64,000 nucleotides of DNA from Beroe forskalii. Taxonomy: Eukaryota > Ctenophora > Nuda > Beroida > Beroidae. The translations under genes and the position numbers were made by a program. Below the pieces are notes generated by a model, which searched no databases, was not told the DNA's origin, and saw only the letters and a program-made list of their open reading frames with translations. Of this stretch, positions 19,396 through 63,428 are shown piece by piece; the stretch's first letter is position 1, and each line of letters opens with the position of its first letter. The stretch covers positions 868,001-932,000 of the forward strand of contig WFMF01000016.1 of assembly GCA_011033025.1 (NCBI GenBank), in the 5' to 3' direction.

Positions 19396-19433
19396 TTCAG
19401 AAATTGCTGTAAATGATCAAATTATTTTTCAGG

Positions 19434-39800: not shown

Positions 39801-39919
39801 TGATGCCAGCAAGATCTAGATCTTCACCTTGATGCCAAGCTCCTGATTCCGATTTCCGGGTACCTGAACCCTACTGGCTATGTCAACTCACTGTCTCACT
39901 CTTCTTTTCCAATAGTCCA

Positions 39920-42204
39920 GGGGGGGGTCCACCGGCCAACGGCCAACCGTCTTAAAAATTTGGTGTTTCGGCCAATTGGCCGTTGGCCGGTTGGCCGTTT
40001 TTTTCCTTTTTCATCCCTGGTTTCGCCCAGAAGCATTATAGTTGAAAGTTGTGAGAGAAAAAGTTGTTACAATTTCTATAACTGGCATTTTCCTGCTAAT
40101 TTTATTGGTGGGGGTGTCAAATGTGTCAATCAAGGTCGTCAAAACAGTTGAAATTAGCCCTTGTGCTTGGAGAATTGAAGGCCCAAGCTCCATTTGTTTA
40201 TATAATGCTGTTTTATGTTGCCGAAATCAACTTTTGAAAGTTGTTAATGGTATAGGATATGTAGATTAACCCTTGATAAGTTCAAGTGTAGACCATCCCA
40301 CCTGTAAGGTTCTTCCCTTATAGTCTTAAAAATCCATTGCAGTATAGTCATGTTGATTGTTGTCTTATCCCTGATTCCCTGCCACGCTCGGAACTATTTC
40401 CTGTTCAGTGTTCATGTATGAAACAAATGATTCTATTGACTGTCTCCCTGCATGTATATGACCTAGAGATGACATTCACGAGCCCTTGCCAGCTTGCCTA
40501 GCAGTCCTAAATAATTTATGCAGTCCAAGTACTTATACTAAGGCCTTATAGTTTGCAATGATTCCTAGGATTGGCTCAGGCCTTTTTGTAGTGCGGCATG
40601 CAATTCATTTGACCCTCCGACAATACACCCCCCAACACTCGATCTATAAGACATGTAGTCATAGCCAGGAAGCTGTCAGCAGTAGGTCTGGAGTAGTTCC
40701 GGATGAGGATCTGGATCCTCTCGTTCCTCTTAGTTTCCAGGGCAGATGGCTTGAACACGTCTCCTCTGTAGGCACGGAACAACTTGGTTCAGAAGAGGTT
40801 CATCCCACTTAAAAACCTTGAATAAGCTGCGGATTATAGCGTTTGATCTGTGTTGATTCATCAAGAAATGCAATGTCAGGGGGGTTAAATGTCGCTGCAA
40901 TCCTCGCACTGTGATGTTTGATCCCCGCTTTCCTCTACAGATTTGCTGTACTGAAGTAGGTGATGTAATGTTGGGGGGGTTAGATGTCCCTTAACCGGTT
41001 TTATGGTGCTCTGAGCAGAGGAAGCACCTGGCCACCTGGTCAGATGTGTACAGTAACAGTGAGACCCTCATTAACCATAAGGTGTCCAATGATACAATGA
41101 TGAGGTGCCTATGATAGAGAGATAGAGGAACTATCTGGTAAAGGTAGGGATCTGTTGTAGCTTAGGGACCAGATGTACCATCATATCTATGATGTGCTGG
41201 CTAAGCGATTCTTCAAAGCACCAAGGTTTGCACCCAGGTAGAGGAATAGCTCTGTGCAGCAGGAGGGGTAGTTGGTGGTTTCTGCAACACTCGATTGGGA
41301 TGGACAAGGAATCCATTGGCGAGGGCCAGGAGCTGCAAGACAGGATGAAAATACTGAGGAGGAGACTGGCTACAAGACTCAGAACGAAGTTGAGGAGCAG
41401 TGGCTGATCAAGAGGAAGTTGAGGAGGAGGCCAAGGCACTAAGGCGGGACAGGGCTGAGGAATCCATAGTACTATAGTGTGAGGCACTGAGTCAGGGCGA
41501 CTAGATGGGCAGGGGCACTTTCAGGGCTAAATTGGGGCAAAGAGGGCTGTACTGGAAAGAAGGACGGTGGAAGAATGAAGTCAGGAGGTGAAGCTGAAGG
41601 AAGCACTGGTGTTGAAGGAGGTAATATGAGTTGTGGAAAGGTGATTGAAGGTGGTTGAACCTGGAAAGGCCCCGGAAGTGGAAGCAGGAGTGTGTTAAAC
41701 TGGTTGCAGGGCCTTGAGGTTGACAGAATTCTGGGAAGCCAACTTTAGCTCCAATAGTCCAATGTCAGGAATCTGTGCCACCGTCTTAATTGGCAAGCCC
41801 TTTCATTAGAATTAAGGAGTCCTCATGCAAGGAGATTTTTTTTCAAGCACTCAAGTACTTTCCCGGCCACTGGAACATATTCAATACCTCTTGGTGAACC
41901 TATTTAGGTGTTAACAGTAGGATGATCCTGGTCCATGAGTTGCTAAAAGTACTAGACTGTACGAAAATGAGCTAAATTATCTTTAATATCACATTTTTTT
42001 CGTGATTTCGATATTAGTGTCTTCAAATGTACTCAGATGTGTTCTTAGAACTATTACAAGCAACTTTCTCTCTGGGAGTTTTTTGATTGGACCCCCCTAA
42101 AGAGCGTAAATATCAAAAATAAAAAACGGCCAACCGGCCAACCGTCTAAAAAATTTCCAATTTCGGCCAATTGGCCGTTGGCCGTTGGCCGGTGGACCCC
42201 CCCC
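39920..42204. mobile_element. 2.3-kb inverted-end element with 6-bp target duplication
   Basis: Flanked by identical AGTCCA at 39914-39919 and 42205-42210. Tips are GGGGGGGGTCCACCGGCC and its exact complement. Inside each end lies a roughly 48-bp block in direct orientation (GGCCAACCGTCT, then CGGCCAATTGGCCGTTGGCC). The 2.1-kb interior has no transposase-like frame, only short unrelated ones. Non-autonomous DNA element by structure; superfamily not assigned. Confidence 0.85.
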
Positions 42205-42796
42205 AGTCCAATATCGCAGTCCAGTCAACTGTCAAGTCATGAGCTGACTCAGACTGGTGAATTAGGTACATTAAATAGTGATTTGTTAGGTATTCGATCA
42301 CATAATTCAGTTTTTGAGTTTTTGAACGCCATAAGTACAAATATGATACCGACTCTTCACCTTATACTCTTACACTTATACTCTCTACGATTTTACAGGT
42401 CACATGCAGGTTTTCTACTCCGAGTATGCCATTGATGTACCACTGCACACGCCCTACTGCTGCATGATGCTGACACTGAGGTTGAACAAACTGAAACTGA
42501 GGACCTGAAGGAAAGGTTGGTGTGTTATCAACTAGTTATTGAATTTTAATTTTAAACTTAAATTATATTGATGATGCGTTGTGAAATTGTGATACACTAT
42601 TGGTGATGCACCTCTAGTGCTTTCTCAGATTATATTTATATTATTTCATTCTCTTCGGAGACTTTCCCATTTAGGGCACTGTCAATGTTATTGAATGACG
42701 TAGTCTTTGACTTGAAATCAAGAGCGACTAAGTAGTCGGCCAATACTTATTGTTGCAACTTAAATCCGGCTATGACAGGTTAACCTTTTCAGTGCT

Positions 42797-42931
42797 CTTC
42801 GAGTCTGTACATTGAACTTCGCTAAAGTGCTCCGTGAAGTTGCAACTCTAAAACGAAAATACCGACTACAGTTATACGAGCATCAAGATCATATGGACAT
42901 CATGGGATTAATAGCATCGTTCAGTTGCAAG
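42797..42931 (+). CDS. Exon, coiled-coil-like, unrecognised
   Basis: Acceptor ACCTTTTCAG and donor TGCAAG|GTAAAT. The frame reads ALRVCTLNFAKVLREVATLK, RKYRLQLYEHQDHMDIMGLI, ASFSCK. Charged, heptad-like helix. A preceding exon candidate ends at about 42515 (TEVEQTETEDLKE|gttggt), which would join in frame (split Ser codon), but its own start is unclear. The 2.3-kb element at 39920 would lie upstream of both. Confidence 0.5.
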
Positions 42932-43260
42932 GTAAATTAAACATTCAATGCCGGTTAAGGCATTTAAATGATATCTTCAGATTTTTCAACTCAAAAAAAA
43001 TAAATTGGGGTACCGATTTTTATTTCAACATTTAGAGACCCCCGTGTTTTATGTAATTTCTATCTGTGTAACAGTGTAGATAAGTATTGGAGTTAATGCT
43101 CCTTTTTTCAAGAACAGCGACTGAAAAGTAATTTCAACTTCTTTTCGGTAACGCAATTGCGATGTTATGCGACATGAGCTGTCTCCTTAAAGGCCGCCAG
43201 CAAAATACAGCTTCTCAAGATGAAGAAAAGAATTCCTAACATGAGTTTTCAAAAAGGTTC

Positions 43261-43436
43261 TCAATATACAATATGGACATCTTGGATAAAACCACGGTCG
43301 TTCACCACTAAGGGCTTGGCGTTCGTTATATATCTAAAAACTCGTTTGCTCAGTTGGAAGTTTCGAACATTTGATGCAACCAATTCAGGCTGTTCAGCTT
43401 CACCTCTATCGGTCTTGCATCCAACTGAGTCGTCTT
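43261..43436 (-). CDS. Terminal exon candidate, unrecognised
   Basis: After acceptor TATTGCAG the minus strand reads DDSVGCKTDRGEAEQPELVA, NVRNFQLSKRVFRYITNAKP, LVVNDRGFIQDVHIVY and a stop. Protein-like composition, in contrast to the plus-strand frame over the same bases. Family unknown. Confidence 0.35.
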
Positions 43437-43489
43437 CTGCAATAATTTTCAGTTTTCAGCCATAAAATAAAGGATGGATTATGATTGCA

Positions 43490-45180
43490 ATTTGCCAATT
43501 TTCGAAAAAAATTTTGAAATAAATTTTAAAAGGGTATAAATCAGTTATCCAAATAAGATACTTATATATTTTTTAAAAAACCCAAAACCCTCCCAAAACA
43601 AAACTTAAAAAATTTTTTTATTAAAAAAATTTTAATTTTTAAAATTGTCAACTGAAATTAATTTCAAACCCAAGATTTATAAAAAATATTGGGGGGTTGA
43701 GACCAAAAAATTCAAAAAAAGAATTTCGTGAAAAACGCATTAAATTTTAATAACGTTAATCTTTGTCTGAATGAAGGGGGGGTTATTTTCCTCCAAAAAA
43801 AAATTTTAAAAATTTTAAAAAAAAACAAATGAAAAAAAAAATTTCATTTTTGTTAAATTACAGTTATAAGAAAAAATATCTGGAAAATTTTTTTCCAGAA
43901 CACACTATTTTTGTCGGGTTATGTTAATGATGATTTTTATAAAACCCATTCAGTCCAAATGCCCCTTTTTTTTGAACCATTCAATCCCCCCCCCCCCTTT
44001 TTTTAAAAATTTAAACTTTTTGAAAAAAACAGAAGGGAAGAAGGTGCCCTGTCTTTGGGTATCATGTTTAAGAAAAAAAATTTTTATGAATTTTTAAAAT
44101 TTATATTTATAATTGCATGACAGTTTTGTCACGGTCAAAAAGGGGCGTAAAAAGGGTATATATAAGGGGAAATAAAGGCCCCCAGATTAATGCTTCCTAC
44201 TAAATTTTGGGTTACGCAGACAAAAACAAAAAACCCAAAATTTAGACCCACACATTACTTCTCCAAATCCAACAATGACTTTATTAAAGAATTATATTGT
44301 TTTTGAAAAAATCCAAGTCCCCTAAACTTTTTAATTGAAAAAAAAAAGGTCATTGTAGTGGGTCTTTTAATTTTTAAAAAAAAGGAAAAATCATAACTAA
44401 AACAAATAATATCCCCCCAAAAAACCCATTTTCAAAACCCCCCGTTTGTTGGAATTGTTAGAAACAGAAAGACTCATCCGAACGGTAATAACTATCAATA
44501 TTGCAAAATTTAAAAATGGAGGAATTGAAAAGAAACCGGTTTTAAAAATCATAAAGTTGAGATTTCCATAACCGTTTCCAAGAGTTTTTTTTAAAAAAAG
44601 CAATATATTTATGATGCAGTTTAACAAAAATTTTTTACCTGTACTGGGGGCCACATCCAAGTCTTTTTATCCTTGGGGTTTAGCTTTAAACCCAACAAAA
44701 AAAAGTTTAAAAGGGTGGAGGAGAAAGGTAAAGGGGCGGTTTTTAAGGGAAAAAAGATCTTCAAAGTTTTTGCCGCCCGCAACAAACTTTTAAAGGGGTT
44801 TAGGAGATTTAGGCCACAGCTTGTCCCAAAAACCGAAAAACACGTCAAAGTAAAACGATTTTATGCCCTTTTAAATTGTTTAATGATGGATAATTTCAAT
44901 TTGGGCCCCTAAACATGGAGGGGGAAAGGGGCGAGGCCATGAAAATTTCAAATTTTATTGTCATAAAGAGACCAAAATCAGGGGAAATTGGGGCATGAAC
45001 CAGGTGACACCAGGTGAGCAAAAATTTCCCCCTTACTGTAAATTAAAAAACTACCATTATTCGCAATTATTTTGAAACGGGAAATTTTTTAATTACATTG
45101 ATTATTACTTAATTTTATTATTAAATTGATTATAGTTTCAAGGGTTTTAAAAATAAGAATTTAATTGATACAACTTTATT
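43490..45180. other. Homopolymer-rich low-complexity stretch, probably poor consensus
   Basis: Extremely dense runs of A, T, C and G (for example C11 followed by T7 near 43990, and repeated AAAAAAA/GGGG runs) unlike any other part of the window. No gene can be read. Sequence error is the likeliest cause. Confidence 0.5.
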
Positions 45181-46284
45181 CAGACTGAAAATTGTAATAC
45201 TGAACAACCCGGGCATAATCAAACAGCAGTTATCTCCCCATGTTAAAAGATGAACATTCGCACACACCCTGTTTTTTTCTGATTAACCAGTCAACGATAG
45301 AAAAGTTATTTATATTTAAAGTAGTAAAAAAAAATCATCGATGATTATTAACCACTTTTGATTACGATGGTTGACCAGTGAGATAAAATAAGAAGTCAAT
45401 TTTTCAAATTTCATGTATGTATGTAATCAGGGGTTTCTATTTCGTCAAAGAGACGACAATTTTTTCGGGGTTTTAAACGGGAAGTGAAGTCAACAAAGGT
45501 TGCTAAAATCACGTTTATAAATAGAGTATCAATGATCAAGATAGAAAATCCAGATATACCATAAATAATCACCAACCGGGACAAATTTCATGTATTTTCC
45601 ACTAGTTAAATCTTTGGATCAGTCGACAATCATCACTGATCGCAACCAAACTACCCATTTATAAATTTTTTTCTCACTTGACCAAATGATCTCGAATACC
45701 TAGAAAGCTCTTAGCTACTAGCTAGCTGCTTCCACTGCACCGGATGCCACTAAGTGAAATTATGATAAAGGAGCAGTTGAATGCTTGAAAATAAAGCGGA
45801 TGACATGCCTACATTACGAAGGAAAGTAAGAGATGGAAATTTGTCCCGGTACCTTATGTATTTACTTTATTTGACATAATTATCACGGTCATTCCATTCA
45901 CGCTGAGCATCTCTATATACTCAGCGTGAATATTAATGTCCGTGAAAATTAAGTCTGGTATTTCCTCCTAAAAATTTACTTACATTTTGAACAACAAAAG
46001 TAGGGAACAACTATTTCAGCTGTTCGAAAATAATAATCAAATTACTACGACATTAAAGATTTAAAGCAATCGATGCAATTATAACAAAGTTTTAGTTTTG
46101 GGACAAGCAGCTGAAATGAATCGTTCTTTTCGAATAAAATAGATTTTTGAAAAATCAACAATTTGTAAGTTATTAGTATATACTCGACTCAGAGTTTAAC
46201 GCCGCGCACGCGCAACAATTTCGCGCGCAAATTTTGCAAAGTTATTCCGAGAGAAAAATCGCTTAGGTAAATGCGCAGCGACAT

Positions 46285-47458
46285 TGGTCAGAAAAATGTT
46301 GTGATAAAAATTTTAAAAAGAAAAAATATTGTGAAAAAACATCTGAAAAAAAAAAAAAAAACTCAAACGAAAATTTTTGTCGTTGGCCGAGATTGGCCAT
46401 ATACAGGGCGACATGCGCGCGCAAAATTCGCGTGCGCGCAATTTTGTACAGTAAATCGTCGTGTGGCGATAGCGCCCACTTATTCTCCGTGTAGACATCG
46501 GTCAAGCTTCACTTTTTCGTTTGAGTTTTTTGCCGATTCATGCGGCTGTTCAGTCAAATTTTAATGAAGAGAATGAATGGCACTTTGACGTGGTCTCTCA
46601 GCTCATTACTTAAGTATCTAATACCTTGATGAATTCCGAATGAAAACCATTTTAAACTTCAAGACAATTAAAACGCCGTCATCTTAGGGATATTTCGACA
46701 AATGCTTGATTTCATTTTCAACTTGAATTTGGATAATTTATTTAACAATGCTTACAAGCGAATATATGATACCTAGTTTACAAGCACACAGAAGATCTAA
46801 AGGACATTGTGGTTCGTGAGGCGGGACACGCTGCTATAGTATTCTATATCAGTATCTATTCTACAGGAGTCGGCCTAGGTAATTAATGAGCGAAAACTCA
46901 ATTTGTTTTCAAGCCTAGACATAACACTCTAAAACCGTAGTGGAGGAAATCAGAAGGTACATTCCAGAAAATTATTGAGTAGGTAATCCGCTCAATTTGT
47001 TCTCAAGTCTGGTGAAATTCTCTCTGAAAATAAACACGAACCATACCGTATACTAAAACAAGCCACACGTTATTTGCATAATATTAGTTGAAATAGTGTA
47101 CGTGTCAATTACTACATTACATTCTAAATACGTCAAATTCTTGTCGTATTCTTCTTCTTCTTTCCACATCTTAACTTCGGTACGCCCCTTGGCCGCTCTG
47201 CCCAGACCATAAGTCCTAAATTAACTCACGTCAATATCAGCTTTCTACATTATCAAAATAAAGCCACTGATCACATTGTACCGACTAGATAAAGTATTAA
47301 AAACCGATACAAATCAATGCATAATACAGGCTTACAGGCATAATAGTTAGAAAATATTGAGCGTTATCGACCACTTCTGCGTAATTTTTATACTAACAAA
47401 GTCATGTTTTTATGTGTACACAATAAAGAACAATTTCTTCAAGACATCAATCTGCAAG
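46285..47458. repeat. Large interspersed repeat, copy 3, left part
   Basis: Matches 25620-26820 and 33197-34310; here the first 15-20 bases of the other copies are missing. It breaks off after ATCAATCTGCAAG, where unrelated sequence and the GCGGACC satellite are inserted. The matching part resumes at 48060. Confidence 0.8.
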
Positions 47459-47589
47459 AATTTAAAGGCCAACTGATAATTTCACAAAATTTTCGAGATG
47501 AGTATACCAGGCAACGCCTCGTACTATATAAATAACATCTATGAAAGTCCGGGCGTGATATGATAATCACAGTGCTCAGTATAGGAAGC

Positions 47590-48057
47590 TGAAATATCAC
47601 TGCTTACGACTCATCTTCGGCGGACTTTTGTTGAACAAGCATAAGCGGACCTACAGTGGACCTAACGATGTATGCAATCAGATGCTGAGGGCGATTAGCC
47701 ATCTAGTTTATTCTAAAGAAACTGTTTCTGGAGAAACACCGACTCATCTTCGGCGGACCTAAGGCGGACCGCGGACCAATGGCTGACCTTAGCTGAACAA
47801 GCATAAGCGGACCTACAGCGGACCTAACGATGTATGCAATCAGATCCTAAGGGCGTTTAGCCATCTACTTTATTCTCAATAAACTGTTTCTGGAGGAACA
47901 CCGTCTCATCTTCGGCGGACCCTTGTTGAACAAGCATTAGAGGACCTACAGCACACCAAACGGCTAACGGTATGCAATCAGATGCTAAGAGCGATTAGCC
48001 ATCTATTTTATTCTAAAGAAACTGTTTCTGGAGGAGCACCGACTCATCTTCGGCGGT
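47590..48057. repeat. About 145-bp GCGGACC satellite, short array
   Basis: Three units with ACTCATCTTCGGCGGACC, AACAAGCATAAGCGGACCTA, GCAATCAGATGCTAAGGG and AAACTGTTTCTGGAGGA. Same family as 55250-57965, which is 7.5 kb away. Confidence 0.85.
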
Positions 48058-48059
48058 AC

Positions 48060-48830
48060 GTTGTACACTAACAGCGCTCAGTCAGTATTCAGTACGTGGT
48101 CCAAACTGAGACTTGTTTGCAGGAACCTTGAAAAAGACTGCGTGTTGTTTTAAGTGTACCTCCTGAAGTGTTGGCTAATGGCTACCTGTTGTACGATATA
48201 CAGTATACACCCTATACATCATGTATACTGTGCAATATACATTTTACACTGAACAGCACTCAATCAGTACGTGGTCCAACAAGAGACTTGTTTGCAGGAA
48301 GCTTGAAAAGGACTGCGTGTTGTTTTAAGTGTACCTCCTGAATTGTTGGCTACCTGTCGTACGATATACAGTATACACCCTATACATTATGTATAGTGTA
48401 TACTGTGCAATTAACATTGTACAATTACAGCACTCAATCAGTACGCGGTCCAAATAGAGACTTGTTTGACAACAGAAAGCCAACACTTCAGGATGTACAC
48501 TTAAAACAACACGCAGTCTTTTTCAAGCTTCCTGCAAACAATGTTTCAGTGTACCTCCTGAAGTGTTGGCTTCCTGTTAAGTACAATATACAGTATACAT
48601 TATGTATACTGTGCAATTTACATTGTTCACTTACAGCGCACAATCAGTACGTGATCCAACTAGAGACGTGTTTACTTAAGTTGCAGGAAACATCAAAAGA
48701 AATGCGTGTTGTTTTAGTGTACCTCCTGAAGTGTTGGCTTCCTGTTGTACGATATACAACCCATACATTATCAATTGTGTGCAATTGTGTCAAATATTGT
48801 GTAAAATGTTGGTTCATACAAAGTGTCACG
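48060..48830. repeat. 170-190 bp tandem repeat with one inverted unit
   Basis: Units of AGTACGTGGTCCAACTAGAG, TGTTTTAAGTGTACCTCCTG and CCTGTTGTACGATATACAGT, also found in copies 1 and 2. One unit part (48474-48530) is inverted and abuts the next unit, forming a hairpin of about 40 bp arms. Confidence 0.8.
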
Positions 48831-50235
48831 ATGAGCGGCGAAAACATGCCTGTACGGCATCTCAATGCAATTGTGGTCTTATTTATAATTTTTATTGTAT
48901 TAATTTTATTTATTTATTTCGGCACATGCCAGCCCCACCGTGGGATTTCAAACAAACAAACAAAGTGCTCAATCAGCACGTGGTTCAACTAGAGATATGC
49001 TTCCTTAGGACTGTGAGTGTTGTGTTAATCGTGTGTACCTACTGATCAATAGCATAGACCGTTTTTGTATCTTATAAATGGGAGGGGGGTTGGAAGATGA
49101 AGCAATATGAAAGTAGAGTTTCAGTGTATGCCTCATGAAAAAGGTAGAGCCTAGAGGGGTATTGGTAACTGGTTGTTGCTAGTATAATCCAGATGTATAT
49201 CGTATATGTATCTATTGTTTCTCTATTATATTATGTATATATTGTTTCTCTATATTGCATACTGCAAACTGCAAATTTCTTATTAGCAATAGTTGGTTCC
49301 AATCATAAATTGTTCGCTGAGATAACAGAGTCTCATAATCAGTCATCATAAAGTTTATCATCTTGTGAAGTTCAACAGGAAAAATGGTAACACCAAGATT
49401 GTATATTGTGTTGATCCCATGAACAGTGTCACCAACTTCCTATTATACGCTGATTCCATCGATTGGGAATTTATGCTCGTAGCCATGAGCAGCAAGCAGC
49501 AGTCAGCTTCTCATGTTGTTCTGATGTTCTTCCTTTAGTCGCACCAACTATCTGAAAATTAATCTTGAATCAAACTTAAATTTCTGACAAAGCAAGTTTA
49601 TAGATTTGAAATCATCAAGGAAGCGTTTGTCCAGCATTGCAAGATTTATATATCACACTTTCAATAGAGCAAACAAAACTAATGAAGAGAGAAGTTTCTC
49701 ACCAATATTTTAATGTTTCGCCCATGCAGAGTTTTTTCTTAGGGAGGGGGTGAAACAACAGAGAGCTTTCAGAGAACTTCATGACTTCAATTTCAAGAGG
49801 ATATTGCAAGGTGGGACAGGTAACCTTCTGAAACGTTACAAGAATTTACAAGTGTAAAGACTTGTACAGGATTTAAGTAAAAATTCATCCAAGATCATAT
49901 TCAGAATTCTCTCCACACTAAGTCACCCTTAGAGAACCCTTATTTGGATCATGAACATAATCAGGTAAAATGGTAGTTCAGGAACATGGATGAATTTAGC
50001 CCCCAATAGCCCCCATTAGCCCCTCATGGGGGCTACGTGAGGGGCTAATAAGAGGCTAGTGAGGGGCTAATAAGGGGCTAATAAGGGGCTAGTGAGGGGC
50101 CAATAAGGGGCTAGTGAGGGGCTAATAATGAATATAATTAAATATATTATTTTTATGTCTTAAGTTGGTGGCCTCGTTAACAGTCCTAGTGATTGACTGA
50201 GTGCTTTCCTTCAGCACAGTCAAGAAGCTTCTTCA
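48831..50235. repeat. Large interspersed repeat, copy 3, right part
   Basis: From 49270 to 50235 near-identical to 35560-36530, including the exon candidate and the left arm of the GGGGCTA foldback. Between 48831 and 49270 sequence is unique, with a (CAAA)n-tailed piece (48895-48963) that may be a retroposon end. Confidence 0.75.
49703..49827 (-). CDS. Exon candidate inside large repeat copy 3
   Basis: Counterpart of 35997-36121 with acceptor, donor and frame intact (KVTCPTLQYPLEIEVMKFSE, then FHPLPKKKLCMG). Few differences, none disrupting the frame. Confidence 0.35.
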
Positions 50236-52935: not shown

Positions 52936-53009
52936 TCATTCGTTGCTGCTTGCATCCAGGTGTATCTTGGCAAGAATAGTGCTGGTCTTAGCGATTCTGT
53001 CTAGCTCAT
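52936..53009 (-). CDS. Terminal exon of a split gene with phase-1 exons
   Basis: Acceptor TATCTTTCAG, then two bases completing a codon, then ELDRIAKTSTILAKIHLDAS, SNE and a stop. Joins in frame to 53462-53557 (PDELDRI). See 60862-60954 for the whole chain. Confidence 0.5.
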
Positions 53010-53461
53010 CTGAAAGATAGGGTGATTTCGATAACCATCAGGCATCATTGAGTTATAGTTAGTTTTAATTAAATTGGTAAAACTTTGATATGTGAAAGGC
53101 CCCCGGAAGCCTCTAAAACCAAAATAAAATTCACTTGTAGCTATTGAAGAAGTCTGCAAGTTGCAGCAAAATCACTAGAAACCTGCTTAATTGTCAAATC
53201 TGTGACCGCTTGGTTCACGAAACACTTTCACCATCAAAAGAAAATTACTTGGTTTCAAATTACCCGAATAAATTCCTATTAAGCTAGAAAATTGGGTGGT
53301 ATGAATGCTGAAACATTAGTCGGCCGAAGAACTGGGCTCAGCCTAATCTATAATGATGATATATCGCTTTTATTGAAGTCGTATTATGAGATTGCAGAAA
53401 GGCCAATCTCAAGATGATGCATTTTGTACAATGTACATGGTTCAAAATTGTTTTTGCTAAC

Positions 53462-53557
53462 CTGGGTAGATGGCAGCCATCAACTGAGCTATACTCTTCC
53501 CCCAAACGTCCCATTTGTCCTCGTGGATGAGCTTGTTTGCGCCTATCGCAACTTGGC
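53462..53557 (-). CDS. Phase-1 exon of the same split gene
   Basis: Acceptor GGTTTATCAG, donor CCAG|GTTAGC. It reads QVAIGANKLIHEDKWDVWGK, SIAQLMAAIYP. 96 bp, symmetric phase 1-1, clearly protein-like. The family is not recognised. Confidence 0.55.
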
Positions 53558-54749
53558 CTGATAAACCAATATTGAATCAATTCTCTGTTTCAGTACATAC
53601 CATTAAATATTCGGCGCATGACCGCATAGTTGTACTATTGCTGTGGTGGCACGAGCTGAAGCCAAGATCTATGTTTATTCATCGGGTATTTAATTTCGGG
53701 GGTCAAATGTCGCAGCGATCGTCGAACTGCGACGTTTGAACCCCCGCTTCCCTCTTTAGATTTACAGTACAGTAGTAGGAGTTGTAATGTCGGGGAATGA
53801 AGTGTCGGGGGTTCAAGTGTCCCTTTACCTACATGATACAATAACTCGCAATTCAGATGAAATGGCGATGGGATAAGTTTGTATGCGAGTGCAAGTGGTA
53901 AAATAAGTTTATTGAGTTTACAAACAATTACCCTCACTATTTGTCTAAAATCTTAATGTTAAACCAATTCAAACTACGATGATCATAGTTCATAGGTTTA
54001 GCCCAAAAAGGTTATAAAAAAAGTAATTTTACACTTCATCAATCTGCATTCGTGATTCATGATGTAACAGTATTACAACCCACACAGTAAATTTTTCATC
54101 ATTTTAAGTCAACAGTTCACCCTCTGAACTCCCTACACTGCAGAGGCCAAAGAATGAGCATATAGGATGCCGAATGGGCAGAGCTGTTGCTCATATCATG
54201 TTGGTTAATCTATACCTTTATTCAAAGAACTAACTTGATGTGAAAACTTTGTTTTCTAACATTTGTGTGATAGAGTGCTTTAACTCTTTAATTATATTTA
54301 ACTAAGTGTGTTCAATTTTTATCAATACAATTGTCTACTCACCGATTATGGGGTTCGCAGATACTGCCTGGTTGACCATAACCTCTGAAGTCCTTTTCAG
54401 TCCCTCAGCATGACAACCTCTTCTTCCTGAAGGGATGTTGTTAATATATTCTATCTAGTTTTGGGACAAATGAGGCCGAGAAAAAACAGGGCTTAAAGTG
54501 AATTAGGACTGGAACAAGTGAGACAGAGAAAAAGGGGGACTAAAAAAGTGAGCAGTCTGGAGGGAGTATGCGACTTTTCATCCCCCGACCTTTAACCACA
54601 CTAAGGATCAAGTGCGACCATTAACCCCCCCCCGGTCGTTTTATCCCCCATTGGCATAGAAATGGAAAGTTTTTTAAAGTTCAACCACAATTCACACGAA
54701 TTAAATATGATTATAAGCCTATAAGCAATTCCAATTCCACGAAGAAGCT

Positions 54750-55042
54750 TCAGGGAGAGTGTACTCTGAGACCTGCTTCTAGATCCGTTCGTTCGCCTTC
54801 TTCTCGTCGGTAGAGTGAGCGAAGGATCTCTGGATCTCGTAGATGGTAGCTGCTGTGTGTGTCTGCTGCTTCTCCAAGGACTCCAGGGAGTTTCCAGATT
54901 GAGGGGTGCTGATAGCTGATGAGGCTGTTGAAGGAGTGATATAATGCTGTGCGGTAGTCCTGGTGGATCCCCTGAGCATGTCTGTCGTAGACATTCCACG
55001 AGATGAAACGTAGGAGCCATCCACTATTCCACTGTCTAGCCA
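54750..55042 (-). pseudogene. MULE-like transposase C-terminal fragment
   Basis: After an acceptor-like ACTTTCAG the frame reads ARQWNSGWLLRFISWNVYDR, HAQGIHQDYRTALYHSFNSL, ISYQHPSIWKLPGVLGEAAD and stops at 54750. The spacing W(N)VYDR ... RT ... HSFN ... HPSIWK resembles the end of MULE-type transposases found in FLYWCH-associated animal elements (WNV-x-(D/E)R ... RTNN-x-x-E-x-(W/F)H ... HP-x-IW-x-(F/L)I). The asparagine and EGWH residues expected are changed, so it is a decayed or domesticated remnant. No upstream catalytic part was found. Confidence 0.45.
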
Positions 55043-55249
55043 CTGAAAGTCCAAGTTAATTCGAAGTAGAGGACTGTGGAGGATGAGGAGCTCGTCAAGA
55101 AGGAAGGAGGTAGACAGGGACTCGTAGACCAGCAGTCAGCACCAAATCCGAGAGCTAAGCACGCAGGGGTGATGCGACTTTTTACCCCCCGACTTTTTAT
55201 AAAGAGCAGCAACCTTCTTCACCCGCACCTTACAGTCCAGGTCAGAGGT

Positions 55250-57965
55250 AGGTGTACCTACGGCGGACCATAGCTGAACAAGCATAAGCGGACCTATAGC
55301 GGGCCTTACGACATGCAATCAGATGCTAAGGATGATTAGCTAGATATTTTTTTCTCAATAAACTGCTTTTTCAGCAACACCGACTCATCTTCGGCGGACT
55401 TCAGCCGAACAAGCTAGGCGGACCTTCGGTGGACCTAACGACATGCAATCAGGTGCTAAGGGTGGTGAGCTAGCTAATCTATCCTAAAAAAACTGTTTCT
55501 GGAGGAGCGCCGACTCATCTTCGGCGGACCTACGGCGGACCTTAGCCGAGCAAGCATAAGCGGACCTTCGGCGGACCTAACGACATGCAATCAGATGCTA
55601 AGGGTAATTTGCCGACTAGTTTATTCTATTAAATGAACTGTATCTGGAGGAACATCAACTCATCTTCGGCGGACATAAGGCGGACCTACGGCGGACCTTA
55701 GTTGAACAATCATAAGCGGACCTACAGCGGACCTGACGGCATGCAATCAGATGCTAAGGGTAATTTGCCGACTAGTTTATTCTATTAAATGAACTGTATC
55801 TAGTTTATTCTATTTAATGAACTGTATATGGAGGAACATCAACCCATCTTCGGCGGACCTAAGGCGGACCTACGGCGGACCTAAGCTGGAACAAACATAA
55901 GCACACCTACAGCGGACCTAACGACATGCAATCAGGTGCTAAGGGTGGTGAGCTAGCTAATCTATCCTAAATAAACTGTTTCTGGAGGAGCGCCGACTCA
56001 TCTTCGGCGGACCTAAGGCGGACCTTAGTTGAACAAGCATAAGCGGACCTACAGCGGACCTGACGGCATGCAATCAGATGCTAAGGGTAATTTGCCGACT
56101 AGTTTATTCTATTAAATGAACTGTATCTGGAGGAACATCAACTCATCTTCGGCGGACATAAGGCGGACCTTAGCTGAACAAGCATAAGCGGACCTACAGC
56201 GGACCTGACGGCATGCAATCAGATGCTAAGGGTAATTTGCCGACTAGTTTATTCTATTAAATGAACTGTATCTGGAGGAACATCAACCCATCTTCGGCGG
56301 ACATAAGGCGGACCTTAGCTGAACAAGCATAAGCGGACCTACAGCGGACCTGACGGCATGCAATCAGATGCTTAGGGTGATTAGCCAGCTAGTTTATCCT
56401 AAAGAAACTGATTCTGGTGGAGGAGCGCCGACTCATCTCCGGCGGACATAAGGCGGACCTACGGCGGACCTTAGCTCAACAAGCATAAGCAGACCTACAG
56501 CGGACCTGACGGCATGCAATCAGATGCTAAGGGTAATTCGCCGACTAGTTTATTCTATTAAATGAACTGTATCTGGAGGAACATCAACCCATCTTCGGCG
56601 GACCTAAGGCGGACCTACGGCGGATCTTACCTGGAACAAGCATAAGCGGACCTACAGCGGACCTGACGGCATGCAATCAGATGCTAAGGGCGATTAGCCA
56701 GATAGTTTATCCTAAAGAAGCTGATTCTGGTGGAGGAACATCAACCCATCTTCGGCGGACCTAAGGCGGACCTACGGCGGACCTAAGCTGGAACAAACAT
56801 AAGCACACCTACAGCGGACCTAACGACATGCAATCAGGTGCTAAGGGTAGTGAGCTAGCTAATCTATTCTAAATAAACTGTTTCTGGAGGAACACCGACT
56901 CATCTTCGGCGGACCTAAGGCGGACCTACGGCGGACTTTTGTTGAACAAGCATAAGCGGACCTACAGCGGACCTAACGGCATGCAATCAGATGCTTAGGG
57001 TGATTAGCCAGATAGTTTATCCTAAAGAAACTGATTCTGGTGGAGGAGCGCCGACTCATCTTCGGCGGACCTTCGGCGGACCTACGGCGGACCTTTGTTG
57101 AACAAGCATAAGCAGACCTACAGCGGACCTGACGGCATGCAATCAGATGCTAAGGGTATTTTGCCGACTAGTTTATTCTATTAAATGAACTGTATCTGGA
57201 GGAACATCAACTCATCTTCGGCGGACATAAGGCGGACCTTAGCTGAACAAGCATAAGCGGACCTACAGCGGACCTGACGGCATGCAATCAGATGCTAAGG
57301 GTAATTTGCCGACTAGTTTATTCTATTAAATGAACTGTATCTAGTTTATTCTATTTAATGAACTGTATATGGAGGAACATCAACCCATCTTCGGCGGACC
57401 TAAGGCGGACCTACGGCGGACCTAAGCTGGAACAAACATAAGCACACCTACAGCGGACCTAACGACATGCAATCAGGTGCTAAGGGTGGTGAGCTAGCTA
57501 ATCTATCCTAAATAAACTGTATCTGGAGGAGCGCCGACTCATCTTCGGCGGACCTAAGGCGGACCTTAGCTGAACAAGCATAAGCGGACCTACAGCGGAC
57601 CTGACGGCATGCAATCAGATGCTAAGGGTGATTAGCCAGATAGTTTATCCTAAAGAAACTGATTCTGGTGGAGGAGCGCCGACTCATCTTCGGCGGACCT
57701 AAGGCGGACCTACGGCGGACCTTTGTTGAACAAGCATAAGCAGACCTACAGCGGACCTAACGACATGCAATTAGATGCTAAGGGTATTTTGCCGACTAGT
57801 TTATTCAATTAAATGAACTGTATCTGGAGGAACATCAACTCATCTTCGGCGGACATAAGGCGGACCTTAGCTGAACAAGCATAAGCGGACCTACAGCGGA
57901 CCTGACGGCATGCAATCAGATGCTAAGGGTAATTTGCCAACTAGTTTATTATAAATAAACTGTTT
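55250..57965. repeat. About 145-bp GCGGACC satellite, long array
   Basis: Some 18 units with ACTCATCTTCGGCGGACC, AACAAGCATAAGCGGACCTA, GGCATGCAATCAGATGCTAAG and AAATGAACTGTATCTGGAGG. Several higher-order variants recur in the same order (for example the CTAGTTTATTCTATTTAATG insertion at 55800 and 57340), pointing to multi-unit duplication. Confidence 0.95.
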
Positions 57966-58084
57966 TTGAGATCAAATATTAATAAATCAAATATTAATTT
58001 AAACCTAATTTAAATCTAAATTTTCACATGGTATTAAATTGAAAATTTAAAACTGAATCAAACTAAATCGAACTGAAGAATAAA

Positions 58085-59035
58085 TTATGAAGGGAGGAGC
58101 TTCCCAGCTTTTCGTAGCTCATCACTTCTGCTCTTGAAGGGGGAGGTTGCCAGCTTCTCCTTGCACGCTGCGCTGAGCTTCTTCTTCCGCTTCTCCAGAC
58201 TCAACTGCTGCTGGCACGCGTCCTCATCTGTGAGAAGAAGTTCTACCAGATGTTTCACCTGGTAGAATGAGGACTTCGCAGTGCCGCAACTCCGAAGTGC
58301 CTCCTTCATCGGCTCACCAGAAACGTATCTCTCCCGCACATTGTTGTACAGCTCAACATCGTCATCAAAGGATGTAGCGAGCCTGTGTCTCCTTTTCTTA
58401 GACGGTTGTTCATCTTCAGCATCAGGAGCGAGCATGGGGTCTGACGTGGAGGCTGGAGGCGTAGGGGATGGTTGGAGTGGGAGGGGTAGATCAGGGATGA
58501 CATCATCGACCAGTCGGAGGGGAGGAGGGGAAGGTAGAGGGGGAGTAGCGCCAGGGTCCGCCAGCAGAGTGAATGGGTCCAGTTCTTCCCGCAGAAGCTT
58601 AAGGATCCTCTGTTCCTCATCTTCTGGTGGAATTCCGGCATCTCCAAGGACTTTCTTCTGCTGCTCCAAATGAAGGGAACAGAGGGTTGTCTTAGTGAAG
58701 GCGCACAGCTCACCATCCTCAAGCCACCTCCTCTTCGAGGAAAACTTGCAGTCTGGACATCTCGATAGAGAAGGCAGGGGTGCAGGAGGGGTGAAGACGT
58801 CAGGGTTGTGAGTAGATGAGGTAGGATGAAGGTCTTCTACAGGGTCGGGGAAAGGGCAGGAGATGAGGGATCGTTCTGTCTGAACAGCTTTCTCCGTGAA
58901 AGGATTGTCCACGGTTTGCTGGATTGCGTTGGTTTGCTGTTCCACTGTTATCCTCGCTGGTATCATCGTAGTAGTAGTGTTGGTATTGTAGGTAAGACTC
59001 AAATGAAACGATGGTGTTGAGAGCTGTGCATGCAT
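58085..59035 (-). CDS. Single-exon protein with CCDC106-like helix-turn-helix region
   Basis: Intronless frame of 316 codons. Residues 93-122 have C-x2-C ... C ... C-x2-H (CPDCKFSSKRRW ... CAFTKTTLCSLH), a possible zinc site. Residues 165-205 are Pro-rich. KKRRHR at 213-218 is a likely nuclear signal. Residues 223-268 (FDDDVELYNNVRERYVSGEP, MKEALRSCGTAKSSFYQVKH) resemble the conserved C-terminal helix-turn-helix of CCDC106-type proteins, many of which derive from repeats in fish and invertebrates. The C-terminus is a Lys-rich helix. A TATATAA box overlaps the first ATG (59035-59041), so initiation at Met24 (58966) is more likely, giving 293 residues. It lies between the long satellite array and one inverted satellite unit, within an intron of the phase-1-exon gene. 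Confidence 0.7.
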   Translation of the reverse strand: MHAQLSTPSFHLSLTYNTNTTTTMIPARITVEQQTNAIQQTVDNPFTEKAVQTERSLISCPFPDPVEDLHPTSSTHNPDVFTPPAPLPSLSRCPDCKFSSKRRWLEDGELCAFTKTTLCSLHLEQQKKVLGDAGIPPEDEEQRILKLLREELDPFTLLADPGATPPLPSPPPLRLVDDVIPDLPLPLQPSPTPPASTSDPMLAPDAEDEQPSKKRRHRLATSFDDDVELYNNVRERYVSGEPMKEALRSCGTAKSSFYQVKHLVELLLTDEDACQQQLSLEKRKKKLSAACKEKLATSPFKSRSDELRKAGKLLPS

Positions 59036-59041
59036 TATATA
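59035..59041 (-). promoter_or_regulatory. TATA box
   Basis: TATATAA on the minus strand, about 70 bp before Met24 of the single-exon gene. Its distance suits a transcript start near 59010 and hence the inner ATG. Confidence 0.4.
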
Positions 59042-59184
59042 CCATGGTGCCAGTTATGTGAGACACCACTTAACAAGCCCCTATGAACCTGACACCTACG
59101 ATGTGACACCACCTGACACTACAACCCAATCATCATATTATGATCGGTGATCCGATGATCAAGATCTTCATACCAGGGGAGCCA

Positions 59185-59285
59185 AGTTATCCTTGTTTTA
59201 CGGAGGTCTGCCTTAGGTCAGCTTATGCTTGTTCAGGTCAAGGTTCGCCTTAGGTCCGCCGAAGATGAGTCGGCGTTTCTTAATG
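59185..59285. repeat. Inverted partial GCGGACC satellite unit
   Basis: Complement of the array unit: GGTCAGCTTATGCTTGTTCA, then GGTCCGCCGAAGATGAGTCG. Together with the array at 55250-57965 it brackets the single-exon gene as an inverted repeat. Confidence 0.8.
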
Positions 59286-59289
59286 AGTA

Positions 59290-60204
59290 GCAGACAAAGA
59301 TGGTTGTGTCAGTGACAGGGAACGACCGAGTACTCGGCTTCGCACAAAATAGACTCTATTTTCAAGGTCGGCCTCGGCAAAATATTGCTTCATTCTGCCG
59401 AGTTTGATACCAAGCTAATTGCCAGAATTTTACGTGTTATTTCAAAACATAGGCTGAATTTTAGGGTCAAACAAGCTAAAATTTTCTCTTGGTTAAAATT
59501 TAACGCAAGAAATTTATCAAATTTAGCCGATTCAATTGGCAAAAGATTCTTCTACAGTAAATAGTTTTACAGAAAATCACGGCAATATAAAATTGAACTC
59601 GATTGAAATCGGCCTCGGCTAAGAACCAATATTCAGTCGTTTAAGCATTCAGAATTCAGTCGTTTAAGCATTCTTTAACTCAAGACATACGATACGACAA
59701 AGAACATGGCAGTTCCAGTGCAACAAACTACAAAGTAGCTGCTGCAGTGATAACGTTCAAATTTGCCTGTTGTGAAATAAAAATTGTAATGTATTGACAT
59801 AGCGGCAGTTGCTAAGTTGAAACTGCCACGTTCATTTTCCTTTCATTGGAGGTTTTGACTTTTTGAGCCTTCGAGATAAAGAATGCTTACAAGCTGCAAA
59901 CAAACACAACTACATGATGTGCTTAGTTGGGTACATAGTATGTTGGATAATATGTTATAGTAGTATGGTATAGTAGTATTGATATGGAAGTATTGATACT
60001 CATTTTTTTGAATGATAAAAAACATCGATCAATTTGAAAATTACTATTTTTCACTTCTCTGAGTGTCCCAAACATCAAAAGAACTAAATAGGGACAATTG
60101 GAACAGTGACATTCTCCCATATACAATGAATAGTTGGCAACCTGTAAAGTCGCCTAAGGATACATGAATACTTTATAAATATGGGAGCCCACTACCAAGA
60201 TACT
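59290..60204. other. No gene recognised
   Basis: AT-rich intron sequence of the phase-1-exon gene. Contains a direct repeat of ATTCAGTCGTTTAAGCATTC at 59631-59672. Confidence 0.5.
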
Positions 60205-60212
60205 CTACTCAC

Positions 60213-60299
60213 TTAGATTGGAGTCTAATATCCTCCTTTGTTTCCGCACGTGGTCAGCTCTCATCGCAGGTGTCGCATGTACAACTGCACTCGATTGAA
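60213..60299 (-). CDS. Phase-1 exon of the split gene
   Basis: Acceptor ACTATTTCAG, donor CTAA|GTGAGT. It reads QSSAVVHATPAMRADHVRKQ, RRILDSNL. 87 bp, phase 1-1. If the donor is skipped the frame ends four codons later (SE stop), so an alternative terminal exon is possible. Confidence 0.5.
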
Positions 60300-60608
60300 C
60301 TGAAATAGTGTATATATGAACAATCAATATTATGATGACTTATAATCAATACAAACGCAATTTACATGACTTTGCCGGGCAAGTAATACTGGTGTGTGCT
60401 CACTGCCCATAGGTCGAAAGCAACAAGTACATCATGGAGTCAATCTTCATCAGGGGCTCCAAGAAAATTTTCTTTGTACCTGTCCTTACGACCTACTTCT
60501 CGACCTGTTTCTTTCAGCACATATGGGCTTGGTACATTTTTAACACATATCATAATCTATAACTCAACTATTTATGACAATTATATTGCTAAATATTTAT
60601 TAACCTTC

Positions 60609-60978
60609 GATCCCAGTCCCCCTTAATTTTTTCATTCCCGCCTCCTGTTCCCGTCCACAAGAATCATTGAAATTGGGGCACCCCCACCTACCTTATTCAG
60701 CCCAAAATCTTTATCCCCCCTTTTCTTATGGGCGGAGGAAGCTATGGAATAGCTTCCTTAAAATGCAAAGCTGCCAGCCAGGGAGCCGGGAACGCTTATT
60801 TGGCAATGGTCTTTTGATGACTACGAAGATCGCAAGTCCCGGACTATAATAAATATTTTACCTTCGACATGGGGAGGGGTGGGTGCAGCTGCTGCAGCGC
60901 GTTCAGCTGGTGTCACATTCTGCATCGTGCGTTGGGCTCTCTGCATTGCTCGGTCTGTGAAAGTAAATATTACAAATT
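60609..60978. repeat. 370-bp duplicated segment, copy A (uninterrupted)
   Basis: GATCCCAGTCCCCC ... AAGTAAATATTACAAATT; matches 61651-61987 plus 63429-63469 with few changes. Contains the exon 60862-60954. Confidence 0.9.
60862..60954 (-). CDS. Phase-1 exon of the split gene, intact copy
   Basis: Acceptor ACTTTCACAG, donor GAAG|GTAAAA. It reads RAMQRAQRTMQNVTPAERAA, AAAPTPPHVE. 93 bp, phase 1-1. The chain of exons 63909-63977, this one, 60213-60299, 53462-53557 and 52936-53009 joins in one frame on the minus strand, all symmetric phase 1 and a multiple of three. Predicted helical, Ala/Arg-rich, soluble; no domain recognised. The 5' part lies right of the window. Confidence 0.55.
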
Positions 60979-61287
60979 TCAAACTAACTGTGGTGTTCCC
61001 TGTCGAGTGTCGAAAGATCGCTTAAATTCTGAGCAACTATCAGCATCTATCCATAGCTTAATCCTGCCCCCCCCCCCATTTTTAATCTCCCTTGCCCAAA
61101 CCTCCACCTGAATTTTCAAAATCCCTCCCCCACCATTTTGGGCGCCCCACCCCTGAATGTTGACAATTCGATCAACTCCCCACTAATGCTAAAACTTCGA
61201 AAAATTTTCTCAGGTACGGTCATGGAATTGTTTACGTTAGAATCAACCCAAACTGGAAACTGAATGACAAGATTAAGTTATGTTTTA

Positions 61288-61640
61288 TTAAACTATATAT
61301 TGTGGCTGACACATCAAGAAATGGGGCTTCAACGTATAAATGACTGAATGTTTCAAATGACTGAAATGGTAATGAAGGTCACTTTTTATGTCAATTAATT
61401 CTTGAATCAAAAAGCTACAAACTGTGAACGTGTCAGCGTTTGTAAAAATCAAGCCTAGGAATATTGTCAAAACAATAAAACAAAAAACAAAACAAAAAAG
61501 GTAGATAGGTAGATATACATATTTGTTAAGCTATCATCCCTTTAAAAAGACAAGGAATTAAAGAGTCACAGTGATAGTGGCAGTCTCACAGCAGCAGGGT
61601 GTGAAAAGAAATATTTCTCGCGGAAATATGATTTCGAAAT
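61288..61640. other. Intron sequence, nothing recognised
   Basis: Between the two copies of the duplicated segment. AT-rich with an (AACAAAAA) tract at 61480-61500. Confidence 0.4.
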
Positions 61641-61650
61641 TCGTCTGTCA

Positions 61651-61987
61651 GATCCCAGTCCCCCCTAATTTTTTCACTCCCGCCTCCTGTTTCCGTCCAC
61701 AAGAATCATTGAAATTGGGGCACCCCCACCTTCCTTATTGAGTCCAAAATCTTTATCCCCCCTTTTCTTATTATGGGCGGATGAAGCTATGGAATAGCTT
61801 CCTTAAAATGCAAAGCTGCCAGCCAGGGAGCCGGGAACGCTTATTTGGCAATGGTCTTTTGATGACTACGAAGATCGCAAGTCCCGGGCTATAATAAATA
61901 TTTTACCTTCGACATGGGGAGGGGTGGGTGCAGCTGCTGCAGCGCGTTCAGCTGGTGTCACATTCTGCATCGTGCGTTGGGCTCTCT
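61651..61987. repeat. 370-bp duplicated segment, copy B, left part
   Basis: Copy of 60609-60942. It is cut in the exon after GTTGGGCTCTCT by the G-run element and resumes at 63429. Confidence 0.9.
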
Positions 61988-63428
61988 GGGGGGGGGGCCA
62001 ACCCCCCAAAACCCCCCAAAATTAAGCCCCCTATTGGAAATTTGTTATATCTACCAGGGGTTAAATTTAACCCCAAAATTAAACCCCTATCGACAGCAAA
62101 ATTAAACCCCCAAAATTAAACCCCTATCGACAGCAGAAATTAAACCCCCCAAAATTAAACCCCCTATCGACAGCAGAAATTATTCTAGTACGATTCAAAA
62201 AAGCACCAAAATGAAGAAACAAAAAAGTACCATTTGAAAAGTTGCCAAAAAACACGAATAAAAAGGTACCATTTCGAAAAGGCGCAAAAAATCGGACAAA
62301 AAATTGGTACCAATTTAGAAGGGTACTTCTGAAAAATCAGAAACGAAAAAGGTACCAATTGAAAAGGATGCCAAAAATCAAAAACAAAATTGGTACCATT
62401 TAAAAAGGGGCTGAATACATGAAACAAAAACGGTACCATTTTGAAAGGATGTTAAAAATCAGAAACAAAATGGTACCATTTGAAAAATATGCTGAAAATC
62501 AGAAACAAAAATGGTACCATTTCATAAAAGTTCCAAAAATTATAAACAAAAATGGTACCAAAAACCGGAAACAAAAATGGTACCATTTTGAAATGGTGCA
62601 AAAAATCAGAAACAAAAACGGTACCATTTTGAAAGGATGTTAAAAATCAGAAACAAAATGGTACCATTTGAAAAATATGCTGAAAATCAGAAACAAAAAT
62701 GGTACCATTTCATAAAAGTTCCAAAAATTATAAACAGAAATGGTACCAAAACCGGAAACAAAAAATGGTACCATTTCTAAAATCGCCAAAAATCACCACC
62801 AAAATGGTACCATTTTGAAATGGTGCAAAAATCAGGAACAAAAATGGTACCATTTTGAAAGGGTGTTAAAAATCAGAAACAAAATGGTACCATTTGAAAA
62901 AGATGCTGAAAATCAGAAACAAAAATGGTACCATTTCATAAAAGTTCAAAAATTATAAACAAAAATGGTACCAAAAACCGAAACAAAAATGGTACCATCT
63001 CTAAAAATCGCCAAAAATCACGAACAAAAAAATGGTACCATTTTGAAATGGTGCAAAAATGAGAACAAAAATGGTACCATTTTGAAAGGATGTAAAAAAT
63101 CAGAAACAAAACGGTACCATTTGAAAGAGATGCTGAAAATCAGAAACAAAAATGGTACCATTTCATAAAAGTTCCAAAAATTATAAACAAAAATGGTACC
63201 AAAACCGGAAACAAAAATGGTACCATTTATAAAAATCGCCAAAAATCACCACCAAAAATGGTACCATTTTGAAATGGTGCAAAAAATCAGGAACAAAAAA
63301 GGTACCATTTGAGAAAAAAATGCCCATTTTTTGCACTAAGAATTAAGCCCCCCAAAACCCCCCCAAAATTAAACCCCCTATTGGCGATTTTCTATATCCA
63401 CCAAAATTGAGGGGGTTGGCCCCCCCCC
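61988..63428. mobile_element. 1.4-kb G-run inverted-end element carrying a KpnI-site satellite
   Basis: Tips: ten G then CCAACCCCC, and the complement GGGGGTTGG then nine C. Flanking TCTCT on both sides (61983-61987, 63429-63433) is single in the uninterrupted copy (60939-60946 region), proving insertion with a 5-bp (or 6-bp CTCTCT) duplication. A block reading CCAAAACCCCCC, AAAATTAA, CCCCCTATTGG, TATATC-ACCA is present at both ends in direct orientation. The interior is the GGTACCATTT satellite. No coding frame of note. Confidence 0.9.
62200..63310. repeat. 34-36 bp satellite with GGTACC (AATCAGAAACAAAAATGGTA)
   Basis: Over 30 units AAAAATCAGAAACAAAAATGG/TACCATTT, each with a KpnI palindrome. 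A higher-order period of about 210-215 bp is visible (units with CATAAAAGTTCCAAAAATTA recur at 62523, 62711, 62935 and 63165). Spurious open frames result. Confidence 0.9.

Follow-up and report, generated by a model that had tools for sequence, protein, structure and literature searches.

Among the closest described systems are the foldback elements Tetris and Galileo, with which we compare two insertions, E1 and E2, in a 64,000-nucleotide stretch of the ctenophore Beroe forskalii (positions 868,001 to 932,000 of contig WFMF01000016.1, C203 in our numbering; hereafter the window). E1 and E2 are each a single copy of a dispersed family, termed F1 and F2, and a third family of the same end design, F3, was found in the same 216-Mb genome. 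Cited comparisons with published systems in this text draw on excerpts of the articles. Tetris makes target duplications of 8-10 bp, has been suggested to be kin to Mutator and is described without an autonomous copy (PMC4079207), and Galileo has a 7-bp duplication and single-end copies (PMC3573991). Tandem repeats and many transposase-less copies are features that both share with F1-F3, as are the single-end copies of Galileo and the missing autonomous copy of Tetris. The two differ from F1-F3 in having long terminal inverted repeats (TIRs) with tandem repeats inside, and neither G-run tips nor end modules in direct orientation are mentioned in the excerpts consulted (PMC4079207, PMC3573991).

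Other described systems share single traits with F1-F3. A 6-bp target duplication is known from IS3EU, whose fungal families also have TIRs of more than 30 bp, and one of 6-7 bp from Dada (PMC12730594, PMC3706591). Both were rejected on their termini: the fungal IS3EU families end in TAYGG...CCRTA, whereas in F1-F3 the G-run directly adjoins the duplication (PMC12730594), and Dada lacks TIRs and targets small RNA genes, whereas F1-F3 carry inverted terminal repeats of TIR type and their duplication words vary among copies (PMC3706591). Hairpins near the ends are a likeness to Helitron2 and IS200/IS605; Helitron2 is described with two hairpins and short asymmetric terminal inverted repeats, and non-DDE groups, the IS200/605 hairpins being named, as lacking TIRs and target duplications (PMC3627910). 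In contrast to these systems, F1-F3 have inverted G-run tips together with a 6-bp duplication. To our knowledge, Helitrons make no target duplication, and Helitron2 was rejected on this count. The coral elements CMITE and CMITE-IN are likewise small non-autonomous families and include a composite of a miniature inverted-repeat transposable element (MITE) with direct repeats. CMITE, however, has a TTAA duplication and CC[C/T]T tips (piggyBac group), and the direct repeats of CMITE-IN surround a central MITE, whereas in F1-F3 two modules form the ends (PMC2872659). Our search of the open-access literature found no description of G-run tips combined with direct sub-terminal modules among the titles and opening lines of abstracts listed.

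End anatomy and dispersal of three families

The inverted G-run tips given for E1 and E2 in a preliminary description of the window were confirmed by direct reading (Table 1). E1 begins with G8 (39920-39927) and ends with C8 (42197-42204), and E2 begins with G10 (61988-61997) and ends with C9 (63420-63428). The first 28 bp of the two E1 tips are identical in inverted orientation, with 74% identity over an 89-column alignment. The sub-terminal blocks in direct orientation were also found as described, with 89.4% identity over 66 columns in E1 and 87.5% over 56 columns in E2; their alignment scores (93 for F1 and 75 for F2) lie well above the maxima obtained in 300 dinucleotide shuffles (27 and 36, respectively). 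A target duplication is present at both elements, although its length is 6 bp and not the 5-6 bp first reported. At E1 the word AGTCCA stands on either flank, and at E2 the duplication is CTCTCT or TCTCTG, with a border that is ambiguous within the runs. The interiors had been taken for private sequence, which they are not: E1 and E2 each match dozens of segments of the genome, and the interior of E2 is mostly a tandem array with a unit of ~41 bp built on GGTACC. The tips beyond the G-run, described as unrelated, are less unlike than claimed (GGGGGGGTCCACC vs. GGGGGGGCCAACC), with no homology shown between them.

Table 1 Coordinates of E1, E2 and their end features in the window
Feature	Positions	Strand	Remarks
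E1	39920..42204	+	2285 bp; one F1 copy
Target duplication of E1, left	39914..39919	.	AGTCCA; same word at 42205-42210
Inverted tip of E1, left	39920..39947	+	G8 + TCCACCGGCC...; 28 bp identical to right tip, inverted
Direct sub-terminal module A of E1	39933..39997	+	imperfect hairpin, z = -4.29 (39928-40002)
Direct sub-terminal module B of E1	42127..42191	+	imperfect hairpin, z = -4.00 (42119-42196)
Inverted tip of E1, right	42177..42204	-	read directly
Target duplication of E1, right	42205..42210	.	AGTCCA; read directly
E2	61988..63428	+	1441 bp; one F2 copy
Target duplication of E2, left	61982..61987	.	CTCTCT (or TCTCTG, shifted one into the G-run)
Inverted tip of E2, left	61988..62006	+	G10 + CCAACCCCC; read directly
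Direct sub-terminal module A of E2	62002..62056	+	hairpin not significant, z = -0.46
Internal tandem array of E2	62215..63318	+	~41-bp unit with GGTACC motif
Direct sub-terminal module B of E2	63348..63403	+	hairpin not significant, z = -0.60
Inverted tip of E2, right	63411..63428	-	GGGGGTTGG + C9 on the + strand; read directly

Our searches of the genome indicated that F1 and F2 are dispersed. E1 has at least 114 match segments (40 of 463 candidates scored), and at least 21 of these, E1 itself included, cover at least 97% of the query, the other 20 at 88-93% identity. For E2, scoring 40 of 739 candidates gave at least 67 match segments, with 80-94% identity in the longer ones. Exact tip patterns occur 242 times for F1 (19 bases; 119 on the forward and 123 on the reverse strand), 334 times for F2 (17 bases; 167 on each strand) and 444 times for F3 (28 places; 220 and 224), and the same patterns read backward as controls gave no occurrence on either strand. 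Subfamilies of F1 have their ends in common and differ in their middles. Interiors are often tandem-repetitive in F2 and F3, and are so in several F1 subfamilies, E1 not being among them. With regard to a transposase of their own, these dispersed copies carry none that could be recognised, as judged from Pfam searches of eight of the reading frames of E1 (69-129 amino acids, aa), none of which had a match over cut-off. The two weak matches obtained (E = 0.027 and 0.098) both fell below the cut-off. A tandem array of ACTCTGATGCCGGGATAAT-like units (39600-39780) lies just upstream of E1.

F3 was recovered by a scan for G5+...C5+ pairs with identical 6-bp flanks, run on the window and on the loci fetched. 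The 31 rows returned were F1 and F2 copies (the two window copies counted twice), two F3 copies and one chance-like pair (L066). The preliminary description had named the absence of further loci of this design as a result that would speak against it, and with the third family this result did not occur. The two F3 copies that revealed the family are L058:255-828 (duplication TTTATT) and L047:5781-6308 (duplication GACACT); the copy in L058 has an inverted tip of 31 bp that takes in part of the G-run (93.5% identity) and a direct block of 56 bp (91% identity). No sequence similarity was detected among F1, F2 and F3.

Copies of these families also occur within one another. In L051 (868-4854) one F1 copy has inserted into a second, and a separate 6-bp duplication flanks each of them. 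A 10.1-kb F1 member (L047:2074 to L048:5188; G000:C142) has a perfect duplication (TATGTT) and holds an F3 copy, a 337-aa frame and tandem repeats amounting to ~3 kb, from which it follows that F1 ends can frame large cargo.

To describe the end anatomy across families, we counted 34 copies with both tips (19 F1, 9 F2 and 6 F3). This set does not include L014, which lacks complete tips, the window repeats of L001 and L009, or two rows in L051 that paired tips across nested copies; L057 was also excluded for its mutated left tip, yet it has a 6-bp word and a direct block of 87.9% identity. In 33 of the 34 copies the target duplication measured 6 bp or more, as against 1 of 1,122 mispaired flanks. 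Longer duplication words arise where the adjoining target base matches the G- or C-run, and the runs themselves span 6-17 G and 5-13 C. The block in direct orientation was found in all 34 copies (32-68 bp, 32 in one copy; 80-93% identity), and parvovirus-like flip-flop terminal hairpins were rejected on this observation.

Specifically, the module of F1 and F3 is laid out as an imperfect hairpin of one arm, an asymmetric loop of ~20 nt and a second arm. The four F1 and F3 modules tested folded better than their shuffles (z = -4.21 and -3.76 besides the two E1 values in Table 1), none of the 200 shuffles per module folding as well. Because the block in these two families is itself a hairpin, two modules set in direct orientation yield both the inverted tips (from the arms) and the direct repeats (from the loops). 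F2 has a direct block as in the other families, but only a short inverted tip.

Inheritance of the end modules and single-module copies

The two modules of a copy, A on the left and B on the right, are no more alike than modules taken from different copies. Identity between A and B was 0.763, 0.800 and 0.784 within copies of F1, F2 and F3, respectively, vs. 0.764, 0.787 and 0.782 between copies. Identity between A modules across copies reached 0.94, 0.92 and 0.97, and modules clustered by side, left with left and right with right. The exception is L067, a diverged F2-type copy in which both modules group together (support 0.918), so that either homogenisation or a separate origin in the same orientation is the likely history there.

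Copies consisting of a single module were also found. Their length was predicted from the full copies, after two close tip pairs had been noticed among the matches listed, as 88 bp in 14 of the 19 F1 copies (66-89 bp in the rest) and 83 bp in three of the six F3 copies (92-93 bp in the rest). The close tip pairs measure 88 bp in F1 (C215:283989-284076) and 83 bp in F3 (C110:684331-684413). Searches with joined modules, with 40 candidates scored in each family, returned one full-length match for F1, the copy on C215 (97% over 88/88 positions), and two full-length 83-bp matches for F3, on C110 (100%) and C192 (94%); one tip of the latter was already among the matches listed, and its pairing was noticed only in this search. 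Three partial F3 matches that extend beyond the usual end match (C236, 6-83; C791, 1-76; C159, 2-76) could represent variant ends or single modules that have been damaged. On C110, the copy agrees at every position with a chimera whose left part is of type A and whose right tip is of type B; this favours deletion between modules over descent from a small primordial element. Judged by their sequences, the rare single-module copies would fit such a deletion between direct modules.

Transposase search and competing explanations

Profile searches of the genome returned 23 hAT, 46 Mutator-like element (MULE) and 7 PolB matches. Among the matches listed, one of the 23 hAT matches (C761) lies within 30 kb of an F1-F3 tip or copy, 3.8 kb outside an F1 copy, and six of the 46 MULE matches (C132, C155, C176, C242, C292 and C434) lie within 20 kb of tips or copies, both figures being counts by inspection that carry no chance expectation. 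By the same inspection of the matches listed, no hAT match lies between tip pairs and no MULE match between convergent tip pairs of the same family. The F1 copy on C761 (G000:C761, 14101-20787) is rearranged, and the hAT-domain match outside it is partial. Six of the seven PolB matches over cut-off stand in open frames of 511-1142 aa. PF21787 (P-element-type) had no match in the genome, but none in the controls either, and is therefore uninformative.

Larger members were inspected for a transposase as well. The 337-aa frame of the 10.1-kb F1 member, the longest convergent pair below 20 kb among the matches listed, had no Pfam match; by eye it is retrotransposon ORF1-like. In a 3.85-kb F2-type member, reverse transcriptase and RNase H frames were found and no transposase was recognised, nor was one recognised by eye, without a Pfam scan, in the frames (up to 222 aa) of four F3 members of 1.4-2.4 kb. 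Viral contigs, scanned three times for F1-F3 tips in a set that may omit records of this or a very near genome, gave no matches.

We consider it likely that F1-F3 are at least three non-autonomous families of cut-and-paste DNA transposons with one end design, moved in trans. The layout, as observed in the anatomy, dispersal, target duplication, side-wise module inheritance and single-module copies, is a real and repeated feature and a variation within non-autonomous DNA transposons. The single undescribed non-autonomous family proposed in the preliminary description therefore needs to be amended: the design exists, recurs in further copies and, within the sequence read, is non-autonomous, but it is carried by at least three families. 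Its statement that the pattern is neither a normal TIR nor a normal LTR (long terminal repeat) one holds for the LTR half, given the side-wise inheritance, whereas F1 and F3 are of TIR type, with two hairpin modules in direct orientation. The other result that it had named as speaking against it, E1 and E2 falling into different, already classified superfamilies, did not occur either, although only because no superfamily could be assigned. In the mechanism that we propose, one or more transposases supplied in trans would cut at the G-run borders with a stagger of 6 bp, the modules would act as putative internal binding sites of the transposase, and single-module copies would form by deletion between direct modules. 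Participation of G-run recognition in mobilisation is a plausible hypothesis. The transposase may be rare, may be encoded on unread contigs or may have been lost.

Several observations count against this interpretation. No transposase or autonomous copy was found (longest convergent tip pairs below 20 kb among the matches listed), and for this reason mobilisation in trans is something that we infer. Nearly all of the 34 copies were retrieved for their similarity to F1 or F2 or for their tips; only three, an F2 copy in L064 and the pair from which F3 was recognised, lay in regions retrieved for another reason. In the G5+...C5+ scan, five shifted-flank controls gave 18 rows in total, 5 of them with similar tips. 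With regard to the target duplication, it is missing from L070, one of the six F3 copies; it is 7 bp long in L016 and L067, which a run-matching neighbouring base does not explain; and its border falls inside the G- or C-run in several copies (e.g., L009, L010, L053, L055, L065 and L069), so that its exact length rests on the unambiguous copies. The F2 modules fold no better than shuffles (62 and 57 of 200 as good), and the hairpin reading thus does not extend to all three families. A single-module copy of F2 was not found among the 40 candidates scored.

It is possible, though on balance rather doubtful, that a single transposase, or a close group of them, recognises the G-run tip and thereby mobilises all three families, with the modules of each family mattering little. 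In favour of this, three families with no detected sequence in common all have G-run tips, a 6-bp duplication and blocks in direct layout. We also ran a screen that did not require G (tip, duplication and direct block) on 319,089 bases of partly overlapping loci, mostly chosen by G-run tips; it returned F1-F3 again, several palindromic or tandem-array matches and one nested non-G element, and outside palindromic and tandem arrays all matches but one had G-run tips. However, since these loci were mostly fetched by G-run tips, the screen says little on the coupling of G-run and direct block. The one match with non-G tips (L068:541-2312) passed the same screen: nested in an F3 copy, it has inverted tips AGGCATAATAGG, a 53-bp direct block of 88.7% identity and a flanking word of 6-8 bp (TCAAATAA), and the direct block is hence not confined to G-run elements. 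This element also carries GCGAACT-type palindromic repeats. Moreover, a long sequence inside the tip is conserved in each family (A-A identity 0.92-0.97), as would be expected if each had its own binding sites, and a shared transposase that reads the G-run is a candidate only, none having been found. An unlikely but more specific possibility is an undescribed transposase group whose ends work in two layers: the G-run tip would set the cut with its 6-bp stagger, and the direct, mostly hairpin modules would be bound in the same orientation at both ends. Several families lacking detected similarity would then share this arrangement, and in the L067 lineage the direct layout would have persisted even as the two modules came to resemble each other more than other F2 modules.

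Affiliation with described groups was weighed against the same evidence. Hairpin ends and tandem repeats are reminiscent of foldback elements such as Tetris and Galileo, a 6-bp duplication is also that of hAT6 (PMC12730594), and both hAT and MULE transposases have matches in the genome. Nevertheless, we regard foldback/Mutator-like or hAT-like non-autonomous elements as quite an unlikely identity for F1-F3, considering that the duplication of F1-F3 differs from the 7 bp of Galileo and the 8-10 bp of Tetris and its suggested Mutator kin, and that the hAT and MULE matches lie outside the same-family tip pairs listed. Derivation from Polintons, as non-autonomous elements with an integrase-type 6-bp duplication, appears very unlikely. 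Autonomous Polintons carry a polymerase and an integrase. Polinton ends are 5'-AG...TC-3', from which the borders of F1-F3 differ, and no F1-F3 tip or copy was found on the six PolB contigs among the matches listed (reaching C331, C244 and C215), even though the seven PolB matches over cut-off suggest that the genome holds Polintons. Least of all do we expect F1-F3 to be unusual LTR-type elements, reverse-transcribed and with short LTRs that carry inverted tips. LTR ends are copied from one template at each move and are therefore most alike within a copy, and LTR elements end in TG...CA. The modules of F1-F3, in contrast, are inherited by side and not renewed in each copy (with the exception of L067), their tips are G-runs, and the inner module edges lack G-run tips. 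Since pairs of modules from one copy show no greater likeness than pairs drawn from different copies, the modules are not LTRs, and we rejected this explanation despite the direct repeats at both ends and the likeness of single-module copies to solo LTRs. The duplication length by itself would suit either group: 6 bp is the target duplication of Polintons and the upper limit of the 3-6 bp given for LTR elements (PMC10045372).

Neighbouring features and implications

Other features of the window lie outside E1 and E2. A 454-aa open frame with an F-box domain (PF00646) at 5765-7129 on the forward strand is probably an ordinary host gene. A tandem array at 55261-57962 is made of higher-order units of 130-327 bp built on GGCGGACCTAA words, and a 322-aa open frame on the reverse strand (58085-59053) has no Pfam match, its C-terminal part being domain-like by eye. 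Tandem repeats with long repetitive frames occur at 19397-20924 (both strands) and 31210-31824 (reverse strand), with no evidence of genes.

Classical TIR elements show their transposase mirror-image ends. If the two-layer arrangement is true, the synaptic complex would instead be built on parallel sites. The presence of direct modules behind G-run tips in three families without detected similarity suggests either a shared undescribed transposase with parallel sub-terminal sites or hairpin modules that were recruited repeatedly. A further prediction of the layout is that a DNA transposon can leave a product resembling a solo LTR; copies of the expected length exist, and one is identical to the expected chimera. 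Once the transposase is named, about a thousand exact tips (1,020 over the three families) would gain a home.

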